Shown: piece after piece, positions 11,494-30,864 of the stretch
Numbering within the stretch: position 1 is the first letter of the stretch
Layout of the letters: the number at the start of each line of letters is the position of its first letter
From: Verrucosispora sp. NA02020
GTDB lineage: Bacteria; Actinomycetota; Actinomycetes; Mycobacteriales; Micromonosporaceae
DNA length: 64,000 bases
NCBI RefSeq assembly: GCF_013364215.1
Contig: NZ_CP054923.1
Location: forward strand, 2,046,001-2,110,000
Direction of reading: 5' to 3'
Translations under genes and position numbers: made by a program
The notes under the pieces: generated by a model
What the model was told of the DNA's origin: nothing
Database searches by the model: none
The model's input: only the letters and a program-made list of their open reading frames with translations

Positions 11494-12600
11494 TCAGTCG
11501 GACGCGGATCCCACCGGCACCGCCGGGTCACCCCGCAGGACCTGGTCCACGTCGAACCGCACCGGCCGGTCGAGTTGATCGTATCGGCAGGAACGCGGGT
11601 CGCGGTCGGGCCGCCAGCGCACGAACCGCGCGGTGTGCCGGAACCGGTCGCCCTCCATCGCGTCGTACGCCACCTCGACCACCAGCTCCGGGCGGACCGG
11701 CTCCCATTCCAGGTTCTTGGTGCCGGTCCACCGGCTGACCCCGCCCGGGATGCGCTGGCCCCGCTCGTGGTCGCCGTGCACCCACGGGTGTGCGGCGCCG
11801 ACGTCGCGATAGGGCGCCAACTCCTCCAGCAGCTCGGCCCGGCGGGCCATGGTGAACGAGGCGCTCACGCCGACGTGGTGCAGCAGACCCTCGTCGTCGT
11901 AGAGCCCGAGCAGCAGCGAGCCCACCACCGGGCCGGACTTGTGCCACCGGAAGCCGGCCACCACCGCGTCGGCGGTACGCGCGTGCTTGACCTTGAACAT
12001 CAACCGCTTGCCCGGCTCGTACGGCAGGTCGGCCGGCTTGGCGATCAACCCGTCCAACCCGGCGCCCTCGAACACGTCGAACCAGCGGCGGGCGGTGTCC
12101 GCGTCGGTGGTGACCTGGGTGACGTGCACCGGTGGGCGTACCCCGGCCAGCGCCTGCTCCAACCGGGCGCGGCGGGTCGGGTAGGGCGCGTCGAGCAGGC
12201 TCTCGCCGTCCAGCGCCAGCAGGTCGAAGGCGACGAAGTCGGCCGGAGTGGTCTCGGCCAGCAGTGTCACCCGGGACGCCGCCGGGTGGATGCGCTGGGC
12301 CAGCAACTCGAAGTCGAGCCGGGGCTGCCCGCTCGGGCCGTCCCGGCGGATCACGATCAGCTCTCCGTCGACCGCGCAGCGCTCCGGCAGTTGCCGACGG
12401 GCCTGCTCCACCACCTCGGGGAAGTAGCGGGTCATCGTCTTGCCACCCCGGCTGGCCAGCTCCACCTCGTCGCCGTCGCGGAAGACGATGCAGCGGAATC
12501 CGTCCCACTTGGGCTCGTAGGTCATCCCGGTCGCGGTCGGGATCGACGCCACACTGCGGGCCAGCATCGGCTCCAGCGGCGGGTTGATCGGCAGGTCCAC
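11494..12600 (-). CDS. ligC: ATP-dependent DNA ligase, LigC type
   Basis: A 368-residue ligase with adenylation motif I EPKWDGFR (Lys31 takes AMP), motif III (DFVAFDLLAL), motif IV (GLDGLIAKP) and motif V (KRLMFKVKH), then an OB-fold domain. It lacks Pol and nuclease domains and so resembles mycobacterial LigC rather than LigD. It joins nicks and may work with the separate Pol protein encoded 2.4 kb upstream. The start is a GTG at 12600 beginning MDLPINPPLEPMLA, a normal N-terminus for the family. Confidence 0.93.
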   Translation of the reverse strand: MDLPINPPLEPMLARSVASIPTATGMTYEPKWDGFRCIVFRDGDEVELASRGGKTMTRYFPEVVEQARRQLPERCAVDGELIVIRRDGPSGQPRLDFELLAQRIHPAASRVTLLAETTPADFVAFDLLALDGESLLDAPYPTRRARLEQALAGVRPPVHVTQVTTDADTARRWFDVFEGAGLDGLIAKPADLPYEPGKRLMFKVKHARTADAVVAGFRWHKSGPVVGSLLLGLYDDEGLLHHVGVSASFTMARRAELLEELAPYRDVGAAHPWVHGDHERGQRIPGGVSRWTGTKNLEWEPVRPELVVEVAYDAMEGDRFRHTARFVRWRPDRDPRSCRYDQLDRPVRFDVDQVLRGDPAVPVGSASD

Positions 12601-12978: not shown

Positions 12979-13899
12979 TCAGAAGCGGGCGAAGGAGCGG
13001 ATCGGCGCGCGGGGACCGAACTTCGGTGCCTGGACGCCGGCGACCTCCAGCAGCCGGCAGACCCGGCCCCGGTGTCCCCGGAACGGTTCCAGCAGCTCCA
13101 GCAGCCGGGCGTCGTCACCACGCGGCTCACCGGCCAACGCCCAGGCCACCGTGTTCGGTACGTGGTAGTCGCCGACGCTCACCGCGTCCGCGTCGCCGTA
13201 CGCCACGCGTACCACCTCGGCGGCGGTCCAGACGCCGATGCCGGCGACGGCGGTCAACCGGCGGGTGGCTTCGGCGCTGTCCGCGCAGCGCTCCAGCCGG
13301 TCGGCGACGGCGGCGGCCCGGCGCAGGGTCTCGGCCCGGCGCTGTTCGACCCCGAACGGGTGGAACACCCAGTACGGAGTGGCCGCGACGGCGGCCGGCT
13401 CGGGCGGCAGCAGCAGCGACACCGGCCCCGGTGCCGGTGCGGCGAAGTGGCGGACGGTGGCGGCGTACGCCCGGTAGGCCTCCTTGCCGGTCACCTTCTG
13501 CTCGAAGACGGCCCGGAGCACCCGGGGGAAGACCAGGCCGGTGGCGGGCATCCGCAACCCGGCGTGTCGGGCCGCGAGTCGCGCCACCACGGGATGCGAC
13601 CGGGCCAGGTCGGCGAAGCCGGTCAGGTCGTCACGCAGCCCGGCGACGGCGTCGGCGTGCGCGACCAGCCAGTCGCCACCCGGCCCGTACCCGTCGGCCC
13701 GCAGCTCGGACCCGGTCCCGTGCAGCGCGAGGGTGCCGGGTCCGGCCGGTGTACGGGTCGCCCACCACAGGGTGTCGTCGACGATCCGGGCGCACGGGTC
13801 GTACGGGCTGAAGGTGAGCGGCCGGATCGTGGCGGCCAGCCGGTAGCCGGGTGGCGGGCGCAGCGTCCGGCTCGCGGTCGGCGCGGTCCCGGTCACCAC
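12979..13899 (-). CDS. AlkA-like DNA-3-methyladenine glycosylase (HhH-GPD)
   Basis: Base-excision repair glycosylase of 306 residues. The helix-hairpin-helix is seen in LTAVAGIGVWTAAEVVRVAYG, and the catalytic aspartate is in DAVSVGDYHVPN. The N-terminal part (YRLAATIRPLTFSPYDPC) matches the AlkA-N type sheet domain. It removes alkylated bases, generating abasic sites that the nearby polymerase and ligase could help repair, though that link is inferred from position only. Confidence 0.9.
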   Translation of the reverse strand: MVTGTAPTASRTLRPPPGYRLAATIRPLTFSPYDPCARIVDDTLWWATRTPAGPGTLALHGTGSELRADGYGPGGDWLVAHADAVAGLRDDLTGFADLARSHPVVARLAARHAGLRMPATGLVFPRVLRAVFEQKVTGKEAYRAYAATVRHFAAPAPGPVSLLLPPEPAAVAATPYWVFHPFGVEQRRAETLRRAAAVADRLERCADSAEATRRLTAVAGIGVWTAAEVVRVAYGDADAVSVGDYHVPNTVAWALAGEPRGDDARLLELLEPFRGHRGRVCRLLEVAGVQAPKFGPRAPIRSFARF

Positions 13900-23311: not shown

Positions 23312-24169
23312 TCAACGGCGGACGGAAAAAATCCCCGGTGGGGGTGGTGTGGAGTCGCTGGCGTCGCTGTCGCGTACCGCCGGGACGCCTCCGACGAACC
23401 GGTCCAGGTCCGCGCCGGCAAGCACCCGGCCCGGGAACCAGTCGCCGGCGGCCCGCCGCGTCAGCGCCGCCACCGGCGGATCCTGACGGCCGGCGACCAG
23501 CACCAGGTTGCCGTAGCGCCGCCCGCGCAGCACCCCGGCGTCGGCCACCAGGCAGGCCCGGGGCAGCAGGTCCCGGACGGTCGCGACCTGTCCACGGGCG
23601 TACCGCAGCGGCGGGCCGTCGGCCAGGTTCGCCAGGTACCACCCGCCGGGCCGGAGCACCCGGGCCACCTCGGTGGCGTACTCGACCGAGGTCAGCCGGG
23701 CCGGTGTCCGGGAACCGGCGAAGACGTCCGCGACGATCACGTCGTAACCGGCGTCCCGCCCGGCGGCCAGCACCGCCCGCGCGTCGTCCACCCGGACCTT
23801 CACCCGCGCATCGGGTCGCCAGGGCAGCTCCCGGCGGACCAGCTCGACCAGCGCACCGTCCACCTCGACGACCCGCTGCACCGAGCCGGGGCGGGTGGCG
23901 GCGACGTACCGGGGCAGGGTGAGCGCACCGCCACCCAGGTGCAGCACCCGCAGTGGCGCGCCGGCGGGTGCGACCAGGTCGATCGCGGCGGCCAGGCGGC
24001 GGACGTACTCGAACTCCAGGTGGGTCGGGTCGGTCAGGTCCACATGCGACTGCGGGGCGCCGTCCAGCAGCAGCGTCCACGACCCGGGCCGGTCCGGGTC
24101 GGGCGCCAGCTCGGCCTGCCCGGTGTCGACCTGCGCGGTGATCCGGTCGGCGTCGCGCCGCCGACCCAT
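23312..24169 (-). CDS. Spermidine synthase-like SAM-dependent methyltransferase
   Basis: A 285-residue Rossmann protein of the spermidine synthase/methyltransferase superfamily: VLHLGGGALTLPRY is the cofactor loop, VEVDGALVELVR the acidic strand and YDVIVADVFAG the active-site region. A true aminopropyltransferase would usually have a longer N-terminal beta domain, so it is probably a class I methyltransferase of unknown substrate. It shares 1 base with the nurA-like gene upstream, so it is the last gene of the herA-sbcD-sbcC-nurA run. Any role in DNA repair is unproven. Confidence 0.82.
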   Translation of the reverse strand: MGRRRDADRITAQVDTGQAELAPDPDRPGSWTLLLDGAPQSHVDLTDPTHLEFEYVRRLAAAIDLVAPAGAPLRVLHLGGGALTLPRYVAATRPGSVQRVVEVDGALVELVRRELPWRPDARVKVRVDDARAVLAAGRDAGYDVIVADVFAGSRTPARLTSVEYATEVARVLRPGGWYLANLADGPPLRYARGQVATVRDLLPRACLVADAGVLRGRRYGNLVLVAGRQDPPVAALTRRAAGDWFPGRVLAGADLDRFVGGVPAVRDSDASDSTPPPPGIFSVRR

Positions 24170-25125
24170 CAGCGACCCCTCCGGGCGGCGGCGGTCAACG
24201 CGCGGTGCAACAGCCGGGAGTCGCCCAACCGGGAGCGCAGCAGCCGTTCCAGCCCGGCGATCGGCACCAGGTTCTGCGGGGCGCGGGGGTCCTTGTAGGG
24301 AGTGGAGGCGAACCGGGGCAGGGTGACCAGCGACAGGTCGGCCAGCCGCACCACCTCGGCGATCTCCAGGTCTGCCGAGCACTCCAGCCGGACGATCCCG
24401 GCCCAGGGCGCACCGGCGGCCACCGGTAGCCGGACGTACCACGACCAGCCGCCCCACGCGGTGCCCAGACGGAACACCGGGGAGCGGTGCCCGGCGGCGA
24501 GCCCGGTGACCACCGCGGTGAGCCGGGCGTCGAGATACTGGCTGTGCTGGGTCTTGATGTAACCGAGGGTGCGCGGCAACTGCCGCCGGTTGCGCAGCGG
24601 TCCGTCCACCACCAGCAGGTCGTCGTCGGTACGCGCGGCGGACGAGACCTCCACCTCCAGCGCGGTCAGCGGCCCCTGCACGGCGGCCGGCAGCTTGGCC
24701 AGCTCCCCGGTGCCGCTGACCCGGTGCACCGGATAGCGGACGGTGCCGGCGACCACGTCGGCGGCAGACGGGCTGGCCGTGAAGAGTCCCCGGCCCACCT
24801 TGGCGCCGGCCAGCTGGGCCGCGCCCCGCTCCAGGTCGCACCGGACCACCCCGGCGGCGTACGACGCGGCCAGGCCCGGGAACGAGGTGCCGTCCTCCTC
24901 CGCCGTCCAGACGCTGGCGTCGATCCGGCGTACGCCGTCGACCAGCAGCACCACGTCCGGGGCGCGCACCCCGGGCCGGGGGCCGATCGCCCGCCAGTCC
25001 ACCACCGGCAGTTCGTGGTCCGCCTCCACCTGGGCGCTGCTCGGCGCGGCCGGTCCGGCCGACGCCTCGAACGAGGCCCCGTAGGCCGGATCCCACGCGT
25101 CGACGAAGAACCGTCCCGCGCTCAC
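24169..25125 (-). CDS. nurA: NurA-like nuclease
   Basis: A 318-residue protein with the motif pattern of NurA, the 5' to 3' exonuclease and endonuclease partner of HerA: LLVDGVRR (Asp63), an acidic LEVEV strand (157/159), LLVVDGPL (Asp174) and GYIKTQHSQYL (Lys191). These match the motif I, II, III and conserved lysine positions of the RNase H-like fold. Its place next to sbcC, sbcD and herA on one strand strongly supports the call. GTG start with AAAGG upstream. Sequence identity to archaeal NurA is expected to be low; profile search would settle it. Confidence 0.75.
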   Translation of the reverse strand: MSAGRFFVDAWDPAYGASFEASAGPAAPSSAQVEADHELPVVDWRAIGPRPGVRAPDVVLLVDGVRRIDASVWTAEEDGTSFPGLAASYAAGVVRCDLERGAAQLAGAKVGRGLFTASPSAADVVAGTVRYPVHRVSGTGELAKLPAAVQGPLTALEVEVSSAARTDDDLLVVDGPLRNRRQLPRTLGYIKTQHSQYLDARLTAVVTGLAAGHRSPVFRLGTAWGGWSWYVRLPVAAGAPWAGIVRLECSADLEIAEVVRLADLSLVTLPRFASTPYKDPRAPQNLVPIAGLERLLRSRLGDSRLLHRALTAAARRGR

Positions 25126-25137
25126 GGGACGAACCTT

Positions 25138-25244
25138 TCGTTCGCGACTGCGGGGCTCCGCTGCGCTGCACTCCTCGCGCTCACGGGGTCACGCCTCTCG
25201 TTCGCGACTGCGGGGCTCCGCTGCGCTGCACTCCTCGCGCTCAC
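25138..25244. repeat. 60-bp tandem direct duplication between sbcC and nurA
   Basis: The stretch TTCGCGACTGCGGGGCTCCG... is repeated at exactly 60 bases (25141-25184 and 25201-25244; 44 identical bases, extending a few upstream). A third partial unit (CGCTCACGGG...) spans the nurA start. The sbcC stop lies in the second copy. On the minus strand each unit contains GTGAGC and GAGGAG, so it can offer start codons or ribosome sites. Confidence 0.85.
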
Positions 25245-27715
25245 CGGCCGGTCCGCTCGATGCGGGCCGAGCGGGCGTCCTTACGGACCTCGAAGCGGAC
25301 CGGGATGCGTTCCGCCAGGGCTGGCACGTGGGTCACCACGCCGACCATCCGGTCACCCCGGGCGGCCAGATTCTCCAGGGTGGCGGCGACCGTGTCGAGG
25401 GTGGCCGCGTCGAGGGTGCCGAAGCCCTCGTCCAGCACGATCGACTCCAGGCTGGCCGCCGTGGTGGACATCCCGGCCAACTGCTCGGAGAGCGCCAGCG
25501 CCAGGGCCAGGGACGCCTGGAACGTCTCACCGCCGGAGAGGGTACGCACACCCCGGCGCAGCCCGGCGTCGTAGTGGTCGACGACGAAGAACTCGCCCTT
25601 GTCGTGGACCAGGTCGTACTGCCCGCCGGAGAGTTCCCGCAGGATCCCCGAGGCGCCGTCGACCAGCAGGTCCAGCGCCTCGGCCAGCAGCCACCGCTCG
25701 AAGTTGTTGGCGCGCAGGTGCCCCGCCAGCGCCCGCGCCACCTGCGCCTGGCGTTCGTGCTCGGCCCGCTGGGCGCGCAGCTCCTCGGCCTGGGTGCGGC
25801 GTTCGGTCAGCCGGCGCAGGTCGGCCTCGGCCCGTTCCACGGCGACCGTGGCGGCGCGTACCGGATCGTCGGAAGCGGGCATACCGGCGGCGGTGAAGAT
25901 GCCCGCGATCCGGGCCGCGACCTCGGTGGCCACCGCCTCGGCCGCGGCGACCGACTGCGCCGAACCGGCCCGCTGCGTCCGGCGCTGCCGCACCTGCTCG
26001 TCGGCCCACTCCGACAGCGTCGTCCACGCGGCGGCGACGTCGTCCCGGTCGGCCGCCGGTGGTCCGAACCGGGCCACCCCGTCGCGTACCCCGTCGAAAC
26101 GCCGCCACGCCGACCGTAGGCGCTCCTGTGCCGCGTCCAGCGTGCCCCGGGCCCGCCGGGCGGTGTCCCGACCGGCCCGCACCCCCGCCGCCGCCTCGTC
26201 GAGTGCCTGCCGCAGCCGCGCGTGCTCGGCCACCGTCGCCCGCAGCGCCTCGGCGGTGGCCGCCCCGGCCAGCCGTTCGTCCACCTCGGTGAGGCGGGTC
26301 CGCAGTCCGTCCTGCTCGGCGCGGGCCCGCAACAGCACCCGTTCCAGGTCCCGGGCGGCCGAGTCGCGCTCGGCCAGCAGCCGCTTGGCCGCCTCGCTGG
26401 CCGCCCGCGCCGCCTTGCCGGCCGCGACCGCCTGCGCCACCGCCGAACCGGCGGGCATCGCCGGCACCCGGGCGACGGTCTGCTCGCAGACCGGGCAGGA
26501 GTCGCCGTCGCTCAGGTGCGCCCGCAACGCCGCCGCCTGGTCGGCCGCCTTCGCGTCCTCGTGGGCCTGGAACGCCGCCGCCAACTCCGCCTCGGCCCGG
26601 TCGGTCGCCGCCCGCGCCTCGGCCAGCGCGCCGGCCGCCGCCTCGTGCTCGGCACCGGCGGTCCGCACCACGGCGCGTACCTGCTCCGCCTCGGCGGCGA
26701 GCCGGTCCCGGTCGGCGTACGCGCGCAGCAGCATCCGCAGCGCGCTCTCGTCACCGGCGGCGGCCAACTCCCCGCGCAGCTTCTCCTCACGCTCCTCGGC
26801 CAGCGACACCGCGCCCGCCGCCGCGTCCGCCTCGGACCGCGCGGCGTCCACCGCCCGGGCCACCTCGGCCACCCCGTCCGGCGCCCGGACCTCGCCCAGC
26901 ACGGTCAACTCGGCGTCCAGCGCCGCCAGCGCCGACCCGGCCTCGCGCACCGTCGCCCGCGCCGCGTCCAGCTCCGGTACGGCTGCCGCCACCGCCTCCG
27001 CCAACTCCCGCATCCGGCCAACATGGTCGGTGACCTGCGCCAACGTGGCGTCGTCGGCGTCGGCGAGCCCGGCCAGCAGCTGGTCGACCGTCTCCAGTCT
27101 GGCCTCGGCCTGCCCGGCGCGGGCGGTGGCCCGCTGCTGCACCTGCTCGTAGACGCCGAGACCGAGCAGGTTGACCAGGATCTGCTGCCGGGTCGCGGGA
27201 CGGGCGTGCAGGAAGTCGGCGAACTGCCCCTGTGGCAGCACCACGCAACTGGTGAACTGCTCGTACGGCAGACCCACCGCCTCCAGCACGGCGGTCTCCA
27301 TCTCGGCCGGCGTACCGGCGACCACCTCGCCCAGGTCCTCCGGGCTGAGCCCGGTGTCCAGCTTGGTGACGTCGAAACCGTCGGGCATCAGTTGCAGACC
27401 GGCGTTCGCGGTCTTCGCGTTGCCCCGGCTGTCCCGGCGCACCACCCGGGTGGCCACGTAGCGGGCCCCGCCGGACTCGAAGACCAGCCGGACCCGCGCC
27501 TCGGTCGACGACGGGGCCAGCGCGTTGCCGAGCCCGCGCGCGCCACCCCAGCGCGGCACCGTGCCGTAGAGCGCGAAGCAGATCGCGTCGAGCACCGTCG
27601 ACTTGCCCGAACCGGTCGGCCCGACCAGGGCGAAGAAGTCGGCGTCGGTGAAGTCGACGGTGGTCTCGTCCCGGAAGACGGTGAAGCCCGCCATGTCCAG
27701 CCGCATCGGCCGCAT
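25241..27715 (-). CDS. sbcC: SbcC, Rad50-like SMC ATPase of the SbcCD nuclease
   Basis: An 824-residue ATPase that with SbcD opens and trims DNA ends and cleaves hairpins. The N-terminal Walker A is GPTGSGKST, near residues 33-41. Two long Ala/Glu/Arg-rich coiled coils flank the zinc hook CPVC. The C-terminal signature LSGGETFQASLALALALSE and Walker B SIVLDEGFGTLD close the ATPase head. Its ATG overlaps the sbcD stop by one base (TGATG). Shorter than the E. coli protein (about 1050) but normal for actinobacteria. Confidence 0.95.
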   Translation of the reverse strand: MRPMRLDMAGFTVFRDETTVDFTDADFFALVGPTGSGKSTVLDAICFALYGTVPRWGGARGLGNALAPSSTEARVRLVFESGGARYVATRVVRRDSRGNAKTANAGLQLMPDGFDVTKLDTGLSPEDLGEVVAGTPAEMETAVLEAVGLPYEQFTSCVVLPQGQFADFLHARPATRQQILVNLLGLGVYEQVQQRATARAGQAEARLETVDQLLAGLADADDATLAQVTDHVGRMRELAEAVAAAVPELDAARATVREAGSALAALDAELTVLGEVRAPDGVAEVARAVDAARSEADAAAGAVSLAEEREEKLRGELAAAGDESALRMLLRAYADRDRLAAEAEQVRAVVRTAGAEHEAAAGALAEARAATDRAEAELAAAFQAHEDAKAADQAAALRAHLSDGDSCPVCEQTVARVPAMPAGSAVAQAVAAGKAARAASEAAKRLLAERDSAARDLERVLLRARAEQDGLRTRLTEVDERLAGAATAEALRATVAEHARLRQALDEAAAGVRAGRDTARRARGTLDAAQERLRSAWRRFDGVRDGVARFGPPAADRDDVAAAWTTLSEWADEQVRQRRTQRAGSAQSVAAAEAVATEVAARIAGIFTAAGMPASDDPVRAATVAVERAEADLRRLTERRTQAEELRAQRAEHERQAQVARALAGHLRANNFERWLLAEALDLLVDGASGILRELSGGQYDLVHDKGEFFVVDHYDAGLRRGVRTLSGGETFQASLALALALSEQLAGMSTTAASLESIVLDEGFGTLDAATLDTVAATLENLAARGDRMVGVVTHVPALAERIPVRFEVRKDARSARIERTGR

Positions 27716-28863
27716 CAGTGCTCGACCTCCTCGATCAGCTCGTCGAAGAGTTCCCGGACTCCGTCGTCGGCGTGCCCCCGGTTGTCCAGGTAGTCGGCGA
27801 AGAGTTGACGGGGCGACCGGCCGGCCCGCTGGGCGACCCGGGTGCCGCTGCCCGGCGCGGGCACCAGCTCCGGATCGATGCGGATCTCCAACGCGCGGGG
27901 GAGCAACTCCTGCACGTCCTCCCGCAGCCCGGCCCGGGGCTGCTCGCGGACGTACACCCGCAGCCAGCCCTCCGGCGCGGTGATCTCGGCGAGCTGGGCC
28001 AGCGTGCCGCGTACCGTGTGCAGCGCCGTCGCCTCCTCGACCGGCACCTCCCGGACCCGTGCCGCCGTCGTGGCGGTCACCTCGACCAGGGTCACCGACG
28101 GGACGTTCTCCTGCTCGCCGAAGTCCACCGCCAGCGGGGCGCCGCTGTAGCGGATCGGGCACGGCCCCTGCACCCGCTGGGCGCGGTGCAGGTGCCCCAA
28201 CGCGACGTAGTGGGCGGTGCCGGGGAAGACCGTGGCGGGCACGGCGTACCCGAGCACGGTGTGCGCGTCCCGCTCACCGCCACCGGTGCTCGCGCCCACC
28301 ACGGTCAGGTGCGCGGTGACCAGGTGCACCCGGTCCGGCTCGTCGAAACCCTCGGTCAGCCGGGTGAGGATGCGGCCCAGGTGGTCGGCGTACGTCTGGT
28401 TGGTCTCGGCGGCGGTCAACTCGTACATCTCCACCGCGCGGATCGCGTACCGCTGGGACAGGAACGGCAGCGCGGCCAGCCGCCAGCGTTCCCCGTCGGC
28501 GGTGGTGCCGTCCACGACGTGCTCGGCCGGATCCTCGCGGACCGCACCGCGCAAGGTGATGCCGGCGGCCTCGGCCCACGGGCGCAGCGCGTCCAGCGCC
28601 GCGCCGTTGTCGTGGTTGCCGCCGATGGCCACCACGTCGGCGCCGGTGCGGCGCAGCGCGGTCAACGCGCGGGTGACCAGGCGGGTCGCCTCCGCCGTCG
28701 GCGCGGCGGTGTCGTAGAGGTCGCCGGCGATGACGACCAGGTCGGGCCGCTCCTGGCGGGCGATGTCGATGACACCGGCCAGCACCTGCTTGTGCTCCTC
28801 GGCCCGGGACTGCCCCTTGAGGACCTTGCCCACGTGCCAGTCCGAGGTGTGCAGGATCTTCAC
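27715..28863 (-). CDS. sbcD: SbcD, Mre11-like nuclease subunit
   Basis: A 382-residue metallophosphoesterase with the full set of metal motifs: HTSDWHVGK (residues 5-13), AGDLYDTAAP, IGGNHD, VTAHLTVVG and LGHLH. It is a manganese-dependent exonuclease/endonuclease that works with SbcC. It starts 35 bases after the herA stop and overlaps sbcC, consistent with a herA-sbcD-sbcC operon. Confidence 0.95.
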   Translation of the reverse strand: MKILHTSDWHVGKVLKGQSRAEEHKQVLAGVIDIARQERPDLVVIAGDLYDTAAPTAEATRLVTRALTALRRTGADVVAIGGNHDNGAALDALRPWAEAAGITLRGAVREDPAEHVVDGTTADGERWRLAALPFLSQRYAIRAVEMYELTAAETNQTYADHLGRILTRLTEGFDEPDRVHLVTAHLTVVGASTGGGERDAHTVLGYAVPATVFPGTAHYVALGHLHRAQRVQGPCPIRYSGAPLAVDFGEQENVPSVTLVEVTATTAARVREVPVEEATALHTVRGTLAQLAEITAPEGWLRVYVREQPRAGLREDVQELLPRALEIRIDPELVPAPGSGTRVAQRAGRSPRQLFADYLDNRGHADDGVRELFDELIEEVEH

Positions 28864-28898
28864 GGGTAGCCCTCTCCTCGTGGCGAAGACGATGTCGT

Positions 28899-30704
28899 CT
28901 AGAAGGGGATGTCGTCGTCGGCGCTGCCGCCGCCGGAACCCACCACGGCGAACGGGTCGGCGGACTGGGTGATCGAGCGCAACGTCTGCGACGGTGCCGC
29001 ACCGGCCTCGGAGACCCGGGTAGCCCAGGCCGGGAACGGGAACTCCAGGCAGAGCGGCACCGGGATGTCGGGCTGGTTGACGAACATCGTGCCGGGTTTG
29101 GCCAGCAGCGCCCGCTGCCGTTGCGCCGGGGGCAGGAAACCGTACTCGGGGCGGGACGCCTCGGCCGGGTCGAGCCGTCCGACCACCCGGATCGCCGAGT
29201 TGGTGACGATGCGCCGCTCCACCTCGCTGGCGGTCTGCTGCGCGCCGATCAGGATCACCCCGAGCGAGCGGCCCCGCTCGGCGATGTCCAGCAACACCTC
29301 CTTGATGGGGGAGGAGCCCTCGCGGGGGGCGTACTTGTTCAACTCGTCGAGCACCACGAAGAGCAGCGGCTTGGCGCCCTGCTTCTCCTTGTTGTCGAAC
29401 TCGGTCTTCAGGGTCACGCCGACCACGAAGCGCTGCGCGCGATCCGGCAGGTTGTGCAGGTCGACGACGGTGACCTGGGCCGACTCGGCGGTGTTGATCG
29501 AGTGTGGGCGGCGGGTCGCCAGGTCGCCCCGGATCAACCGGGACAGGTCCTTCTTGCTGCCGATCAGCCGCCGGGCGAAGGCGTTCACGGTGCCCAGGCC
29601 GACCGCGCTGCCCGCCCAGTCGCTGCGGGTCTCGTCGTCGCTGAGCTGCTCGACGATGTGGTCGACCAGGTCGGCGTACGTGCCCAGGCGCACCCCGTCG
29701 ACGCTGACCCCGCCGTCGGCGGGCTGGGCGTAGCGGGCCAGGTGCGCGGCGACCGAGTGCACCACCATCGTGTACTGCTGCCGCTCGTCGTCGGCGTCGG
29801 CGAAGACGTACGGCAGCAGGCGCTTCTCGCAGAACTCGGTCAGCGTCCAGTAGAAGCTGTCCACCCCGGTCAGTCGGTTGTGCACGTCGGGCGTGCCGGA
29901 GGAGTCGCCGACCCGGGGTGGGGCGTACACCCGGACGTCCGGGAAGGCGTCGGCGACCAGGCCGAGCCGGGCGTACGCGGCCCGGGTGGGATCGTCCAGC
30001 CGGGCGTTCGGGTGGTCGAGGAAGAGCAGGTCCTCGCCCTTGACGTTGAAGATCAGCGCCTTGGCGTTGACCGCGTCCCCGCCGAGCTGGCCGGAGCGGA
30101 ACACCGAGTAGAGCAGGAAGGTGGCGAAGCTGGTCTTGGTGGCCACCCCGGAGATGCCGGAGATCGACACGTGGGCGCCACGGGTGCCGTCGAGGAAGTC
30201 GGCGTTGAGGTAGACCGGCACCCCGTCGCGCCCGGTGCCCATCGGGACGCGTCGCTCCATCCGGTCGAAGTGCAGCGCCCGGGCGCGCGCGTCCCCCTCG
30301 GCCCGGTGCACCACCGCGCCCGGGTGCGGCGGCACGTAGAACTCCGGGTCCACCCGGGTGGTGGTGATCTCCGCTGCCTCCTGCACCTGCGCCGGCAGCG
30401 TGCCGTCGGCGATGGCGAACACGTCGGAGTCGAACTGTGCGCCCTCGTGCCGCGCACGGACCTGGGTGACCACCCCGGCGATGGTCACCGGCTCGCGGTC
30501 CGGCAGCTCCCGCCGGGTCACCACCACGTCGTCGAGCTGGAGGTAACTGCCGGGGGCGACCGCCGTCCAGAACTGCAGCGGCGTGGCGTCGGCGGTGCCG
30601 AGCACCCGACCGACCCCCTCACCCGGGCCGTCGAGCCCGCCCGGGTCGACCCCCTCGCGCGGGCCGTCGAGCTCGCCCGGGCGGTGGATCCCCTGGTCAG
30701 TCAT
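28899..30704 (-). CDS. herA: HerA-like FtsK/HerA-superfamily ATPase
   Basis: A 601-residue hexameric motor-type ATPase. It starts with a HAS-barrel-like domain (about 33-115, VLGTADATPLQF, GSYLQLDDVVV). The ATPase has a modified P-loop GISGVATKTS (183-192), Walker B LLFVVLDELN (Asp453, Glu454) and sensor GAQQT (488-492). HerA translocates on DNA and drives NurA in archaea. It is the first gene of the run herA-sbcD-sbcC-nurA. ATG at 30704 is used; an upstream in-frame start adds 13 residues with no ribosome site. Confidence 0.87.
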   Translation of the reverse strand: MTDQGIHRPGELDGPREGVDPGGLDGPGEGVGRVLGTADATPLQFWTAVAPGSYLQLDDVVVTRRELPDREPVTIAGVVTQVRARHEGAQFDSDVFAIADGTLPAQVQEAAEITTTRVDPEFYVPPHPGAVVHRAEGDARARALHFDRMERRVPMGTGRDGVPVYLNADFLDGTRGAHVSISGISGVATKTSFATFLLYSVFRSGQLGGDAVNAKALIFNVKGEDLLFLDHPNARLDDPTRAAYARLGLVADAFPDVRVYAPPRVGDSSGTPDVHNRLTGVDSFYWTLTEFCEKRLLPYVFADADDERQQYTMVVHSVAAHLARYAQPADGGVSVDGVRLGTYADLVDHIVEQLSDDETRSDWAGSAVGLGTVNAFARRLIGSKKDLSRLIRGDLATRRPHSINTAESAQVTVVDLHNLPDRAQRFVVGVTLKTEFDNKEKQGAKPLLFVVLDELNKYAPREGSSPIKEVLLDIAERGRSLGVILIGAQQTASEVERRIVTNSAIRVVGRLDPAEASRPEYGFLPPAQRQRALLAKPGTMFVNQPDIPVPLCLEFPFPAWATRVSEAGAAPSQTLRSITQSADPFAVVGSGGGSADDDIPF

Positions 30705-30864
30705 CAGACGGCTCCGGTCGGCTGGTCGTCGCGGTCGGCACACACGCCCTGCATCCTGCCGGAGGAGTACGACAGGCCGCCACGCGACGCGGCGGAGACC
30801 ACGCCCCGGCCACCCGCCGGGCGCGTACGGCGACCGACCGTGGACCCTGCGTGCCGGTGGCCGC

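Follow-up and report, generated by a model that had tools for sequence, protein, structure and literature searches.

Homologues of herA, mre11, rad50, and nurA are described in Sulfolobus as one operon in which each gene is essential (PMC4351679), and the herA-mre11-rad50-nurA genes of S. acidocaldarius were reported to be co-transcribed. For Deinococcus radiodurans, HerA translocation was described as feeding the duplex into NurA, with the 5′ strand being cut (PMC9960219), and a paper of 2015 stated that the connection of sbcCD with the Deinococcus HerA-NurA was still to be uncovered (PMC4663267). The nurA-hepA-sbcD-sbcC cluster of Oceanithermus profundus was explained as a later recruitment of SbcCD (PMC5448004). 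Here, we describe a herA-sbcD-sbcC-nurA cluster in a 64,000-nucleotide stretch of the soil actinobacterium Verrucosispora sp. NA02020 (contig NZ_CP054923.1, positions 2,046,001 to 2,110,000; hereafter, the window), for which an earlier note had proposed an archaeal-style cluster for end resection. The gene content and order are those of the operon of heat-loving archaea, while the protein types are not: HerA and NurA are of the Deinococcus type, and SbcD and SbcC are bacterial. We consider it likely, with a probability of roughly 0.7, that the four genes constitute one operon for the processing of DNA double-strand ends that operates beside AdnAB and does not replace it.

The four genes are as follows:

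28899–30704, minus strand: herA, 601 amino acids, ATG start; HAS-barrel/FtsK-HerA hexameric DNA translocase of the Deinococcus type
27715–28863, minus strand: sbcD; Mre11-family nuclease subunit
25241–27715, minus strand: sbcC, ATG at 27715; Rad50-family ATPase with a CPVC hook
24169–25125, minus strand: nurA, 318 amino acids, GTG start; RNase H-like nuclease of the bacterial type

As in the archaeal operon, the four genes are adjacent and on one strand. All four reading frames are open, and the small or overlapping gaps noted earlier were found: herA and sbcD are separated by 35 bases, the ATG of sbcC (its position being worked out) shares one base with the sbcD stop codon, and 115 bases lie between the sbcC stop and the nurA start. 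This spacing and overlap suggest co-transcription of the four genes.

Identity of the four proteins

The herA product matched HerA of D. radiodurans (drHerA; 7f6d_B) with a phmmer E-value of 5.9e-150. The Walker A K/T, D220, Walker B D487/E488, R495, and R552 of drHerA have identical counterparts in the alignment, and all the features of a bacterial-type HerA (Walker A and B, catalytic acid, and pore arginines) are present, which confirms the HAS-barrel HerA-like ATPase read from the sequence. Against the archaeal HerA equivalog of NCBIfam (NF040819), it scored 12.9 bits (cut-off 970).

The check proposed earlier for the nurA product, a match to Pfam PF09376, failed with 13.2 bits against a gathering score of 21 (0 of 1 genomes matched), and more sensitive profile and fold tests were used instead. 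The sequence profile A1 matched 7f6d_H at 1.8e-55 and 1zup at 3.3e-17, and the RNase H-like NurA fold was found. D63, K191, and R281 of the window NurA align with the identical D53, K201, and R309 of D. radiodurans NurA (drNurA) and are unchanged across 33 alignment rows. The motifs VDG, VDGPL, and GYIKTQ are present as reported, and the assignment as NurA is upheld by these other routes. Archaeal NurA was absent from the Foldseek matches at an E-value of 0.001 or better and present among those of VIA-align. These comparisons place HerA and NurA in the Deinococcus type, not in the archaeal one.

SbcD scored 178.2 bits against TIGR00619 (cut-off 77.65), compared with 48.5 bits against the archaeal Mre11_Sulfo model, and was also above the cut-off for Pfam Metallophos. 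In SbcC, AAA_23 and SbcC_Walker_B were both above their cut-offs, and the score against Rad50_Halo was 84.6 bits, compared with 265.7 bits against TIGR00618, itself under the cut-off for that model. The Mre11-like and Rad50-like annotations are borne out, and judged by these models the two proteins are bacterial SbcD and SbcC rather than of the archaeal type.

Distribution and linkage of the four genes

HerA was found in all 61 sampled Micromonosporaceae genomes. Counted at a threshold of E 1e-20, it was found in 28 of 150 genomes in the sample of the order (19 of them Micromonosporaceae) and in 65 of 246 in that of the phylum, some at approximately 30% identity. Through HerA, 138 loci were collected, comprising 58 picked for diversity and contig room and the best 80 of at least 546 from a scan of named genomes, which are mostly metagenome bins whose titles can be wrong; at least three of the 138 duplicate another locus. 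Four-gene loci among these best 80 carried the titles Acidimicrobiia, Actinomycetes, Chloroflexi, Gemmatimonadota, Acidobacteria, Spirochaetaceae, and Pseudomonadales. The full set was found on one strand in 108 of the 138 loci, and in none of the 138 was a member gene on the opposite strand; the clustering is therefore more than chance. The order was HerA-SbcD-SbcC-NurA in 62 of the full loci, NurA-HerA-SbcD-SbcC in 45, and another variant in one. Among the 30 incomplete loci, 23 have less than 2 kb on at least one side. The gene order is kept in the Micromonosporaceae relatives, a point that the earlier note had proposed to survey, and the cluster is not peculiar to the source organism, being found in several bacterial phyla. 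The recurrence of the set in other bacteria, with its genes kept together, makes a dedicated, if little-studied, DNA-repair pathway probable.

In 18 loci, two of them being one record, herA and sbcD lie more than 900 bases apart. The frames in 17 inspected gaps were mostly unrelated and the four genes remained close together; hence, the linkage survives the insertion of passenger genes. A common fifth gene, suspected from the alike gap sizes, was rejected on these grounds; L077 and L081 do share a frame. Two loci of the phylum sample (L092 and L093) hold a distant HerA (approximately 30% identity) and, close to it on the same strand, SbcCD and weak matches to NurA; they are possibly a far branch of the four-gene operon.

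Among 72,556 plasmid records, six matched the window HerA at E 1e-10. All four genes are carried by Streptomyces and Sphaerospermopsis plasmids and by an 11.8 Mb Nonomuraea record labeled as a plasmid. On the Streptomyces plasmid, the whole HerA-SbcD-SbcC-NurA set (L229, 8872–16441) lies a few genes from TIGR02680/TIGR02678/DUF2397 and an ImmA/IrrE peptidase. The NurA-HerA-SbcD-SbcC arrangement is seen on a cyanobacterial plasmid of conjugative type (L228, 7937–14937).

HerA-nuclease pairs such as TdpAB and Nezha-type systems serve in defense, and SbcCD-like proteins also occur in defense systems. The four-gene set could accordingly be an anti-phage or anti-plasmid module, and defense-candidate genes near some of the patchy copies, of which 4 of 10 match PADLOC models, count for this and against a role in repair. 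The Pfam neighbors of the patchy copies are mostly ordinary, and we judge a defense module unlikely. TdpAB, itself a defense system, is further from the window NurA than drNurA is, TdpB was not the closest relative, and we know of no link between TdpAB and SbcCD.

Co-inheritance and the lineage of SbcD

The trees of the four genes were compared using FastTree for 95 rows with good lengths (92 splits and 50 shuffles). Pairwise, the trees had 53–62 of the 92 splits in common, compared with at most two after shuffling, and conflicting supported splits numbered 3–8. The two gene arrangements did not separate cleanly on any gene tree, two changes being needed on each. The four genes are thus co-inherited.

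In 38 picked genomes (18 with HerA and 20 without), SbcD was found in all 18 HerA-bearing genomes at E 2.5e-105 or better with 48–100% identity. In the HerA-free genomes, the best match was never under 1.7e-40, and seven had no match. A second, distant SbcD was found in 6 of the 18 HerA-bearing genomes. When 58 SbcD sequences from operons and 21 stand-alone ones were placed on one tree, the label switched twice, compared with 18.6 times in shuffles. The tree was enlarged with stand-alone copies from Pseudomonadota, Bacteroidota, Bacillota, Fusobacteriota, and Deinococcota (7 of 149 plasmid records), and two long rows were removed; with 60 operon and 28 stand-alone rows, two switches were again obtained, compared with 24.0 in shuffles. 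The one exception to the separation is L217, an operon-type SbcCD in a genome without HerA at E 1e-20, which groups with the operon SbcDs and is possibly a relic of the four-gene operon. The operon SbcD probably arose once; we put this no more strongly because the trees came from quick, unrooted searches and some of the added rows were long-branched with odd composition.

Proposed function

The source genome carries a tandem gene pair with UvrD helicase and PDDEXK_1 domains. The match of one member to 6ppj/7sjr reaches E 2e-172 or better; we take this pair to be AdnAB. The HerA-NurA set is therefore an additional pathway. A replacement of AdnAB by HerA-NurA was considered and rejected, as PDDEXK_1 was found in all 38 genomes, both with and without HerA. 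The question raised is why an AdnAB-bearing genome keeps a second resection machine, with HerA being in every sampled member of the family.

The joint role in DNA end resection claimed in the earlier note is the best-supported reading of the locus, and its steps can be proposed as follows. SbcC-SbcD would recognize and then nick or clip the ends, blocked and hairpin ones included. The HerA hexamer would load next on the duplex and pump it into the NurA dimer, which would melt the duplex and cut the 5′ strand, so that a 3′ single-stranded tail would remain for RecA. We infer the physical coupling of SbcCD with HerA-NurA, the hand-over between them, and the direction of resection from the Deinococcus mechanism, the reported interaction of archaeal Mre11 with HerA (PMC2288612), and the linkage. 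The reading is favored by the match of HerA and NurA to the solved Deinococcus HerA-NurA complex and its catalytic residues, the presence of HerA in every sampled family genome, the linkage and co-inheritance of the four genes, the SbcD lineage of the operon, the recA-like promoter, and the Sulfolobus operon.

Several results weigh against this reading. SbcC remained under the cut-off of NCBIfam TIGR00618 (478.5 bits), which was still its best family, and of the three NurA-binding acidic residues of drHerA, D78 alone is kept, E80 and D81 being replaced. In the sample of the class, HerA is missing from most genomes, being present at E 1e-20 in 17 of 296 (3 Micromonosporaceae), and seven incomplete loci (L075, L076, L103, L105, L144, L155, and L159) have at least 2 kb on both sides. 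In D. radiodurans, the deletion of nurA and herA was reported to confer an approximately tenfold higher resistance to UV and mitomycin C; the effect in vivo may therefore have either sign, and the set need not simply promote repair.

This improved survival would fit two functions in one operon, with SbcCD alone clearing hairpins and crosslinks and HerA-NurA having another role, such as restraining recombination or growth. The same can be said of the Eremiobacterota-titled loci L103 and L105 (the title of L105 being just 'Bacterium isolate SZAS-1'), where NurA-HerA has no SbcCD in flanks of 8 kb or more on both sides, and of Thermus, described as having the NurA-HerA pair alone (PMC5448004). 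The co-inheritance of all four genes and the tie of the SbcD lineage to HerA speak against such a division, which we regard as quite improbable. Within the preferred reading, that of one operon for end processing, we tentatively raise a broader possibility that we hold at less than even odds: the set may be an old bacterial end-resection module, in which HerA-NurA and its own SbcCD lineage, separate from housekeeping SbcCD, form one heritable unit across several phyla and plasmids, with a LexA-independent PafBC-type promoter that responds to damage and is shared with recA in Micromonosporaceae, serving as a second machine for blocked ends beside AdnAB.

Promoter and other features of the locus

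The remaining features are as follows:

30753–30774, minus strand: predicted promoter TGTCGTAC-N8-CAGGAT, similar to the recA promoter of the genus
30704–30745, minus strand: predicted leaderless 13-codon leader open reading frame (ORF), whose stop codon shares one base with the herA start
25138–25244, minus strand: start-codon-associated repeat of approximately 60 bases, present twice in the sbcC–nurA gap
23312–24169, minus strand: spermidine-synthase/methyltransferase-like gene, ATG at 24169 (NF037959, 97.1 bits; cut-off 40)

The herA promoter pattern was first spotted by eye in the upstream stretches. In the family layout, seven bases separate it from the GTG of the leader ORF, which has 12–33 codons and stops at the herA start. 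Among the 30 closest family loci, 13 show this layout, that of the window included; the first promoter element varies slightly among the 13. In all 15 genomes of the genus, the recA promoter TGTCGGAC-N8-TAGCGT lies 6–7 bases upstream of a GTG. At L241 (G000:C1:5063329-5063352, minus strand), TGTCGTAC-N8-AAGAAT is followed after seven bases, the same leaderless spacing as that of herA, by the GTG of a bifunctional 3′-5′ exonuclease/DNA polymerase gene (NF011538, 673.9 bits; cut-off 389). For mycobacteria, the damage promoter was published as tTGTCRgtg-8-TannnT (PMC5656591). On this basis, damage induction of the herA operon is predicted, with the caveats that follow.

A genome search with up to three mismatches gave 29 matches, most of which are uninformative because the reversed control gave 12. 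Three other matches had two mismatches, comprising L241 with the leaderless layout and two without it. A combined herA and recA pattern gave four matches and none in the control, a result that is partly circular as the pattern was built from herA and recA; of the other two matches, one had no long frame behind it and one a 405-codon frame. Upstream of herA in Micromonosporaceae, LexA boxes scored 7.71 compared with 7.43 for shuffles, about equal, and the mycobacterial PafBC consensus 7.33 compared with 7.24. In other loci of the class, the latter scored somewhat better than shuffles (8.17 compared with 7.23). The recA gene itself (L281, G000:C1:1955258-1957135) contains an in-frame, intein-like insert: positions 1–198 and 193–262 of the RecA model lie approximately 1.07 kb apart, and the same split was seen in 3 of the 15 genus genomes.

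The 115-base gap before nurA is accounted for by the repeat, which opens with the start-codon context GTGAGCGCG and is present there twice. Genome-wide, 10 copies were found at up to three mismatches and none with the reversed control. The same junction holds four copies in the relative L038 and has no room for the repeat in the relative L037, where sbcC and nurA overlap by four bases (start chosen by script). The element looks like a start-codon-associated repeat of variable copy number.

The methyltransferase at the cluster end was correctly described as overlapping, as it begins one base inside the nurA stop. Of 58 loci, eight, each from Micromonosporaceae, have it beside nurA, and it is probably a passenger. 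Two other repair-gene-like frames of the window (11494–12600 and 12979–13899, both minus strand) were spotted by eye and, from their motifs, presumably encode, in this order, an ATP-dependent DNA ligase and a protein resembling a DNA glycosylase; further DNA-repair genes may thus sit within 20 kb.

Comparison with known systems

In the titles and abstract beginnings of the open-access literature, no such cluster was described for actinobacteria, and nothing joined HerA, NurA, and Micromonospora. The bacterial operon can be called new only provisionally because the 2004 HerA papers (Iyer; Constantinesco) could contain more. The Sulfolobus operon, as described in PMC4351679 and PMC2288612, has the same four activities and listed gene order as the window. 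The window HerA and NurA, however, fall below the archaeal and Pfam cut-offs, SbcD and SbcC score far higher on bacterial models, and the host additionally has AdnAB. With D. radiodurans (7f6d; PMC9960219), the window shares the subtype of HerA, down to the unusual GISGVATKT of its Walker A, and the fold and catalytic residues of NurA; in the window, sbcCD and herA-nurA sit in one cluster, whereas their connection in D. radiodurans was stated in 2015 to be still uncharted (PMC4663267). The O. profundus cluster (PMC5448004) has the same four genes in a bacterium in another order, and, in contrast to its explanation by later recruitment, the loci surveyed here look co-inherited.
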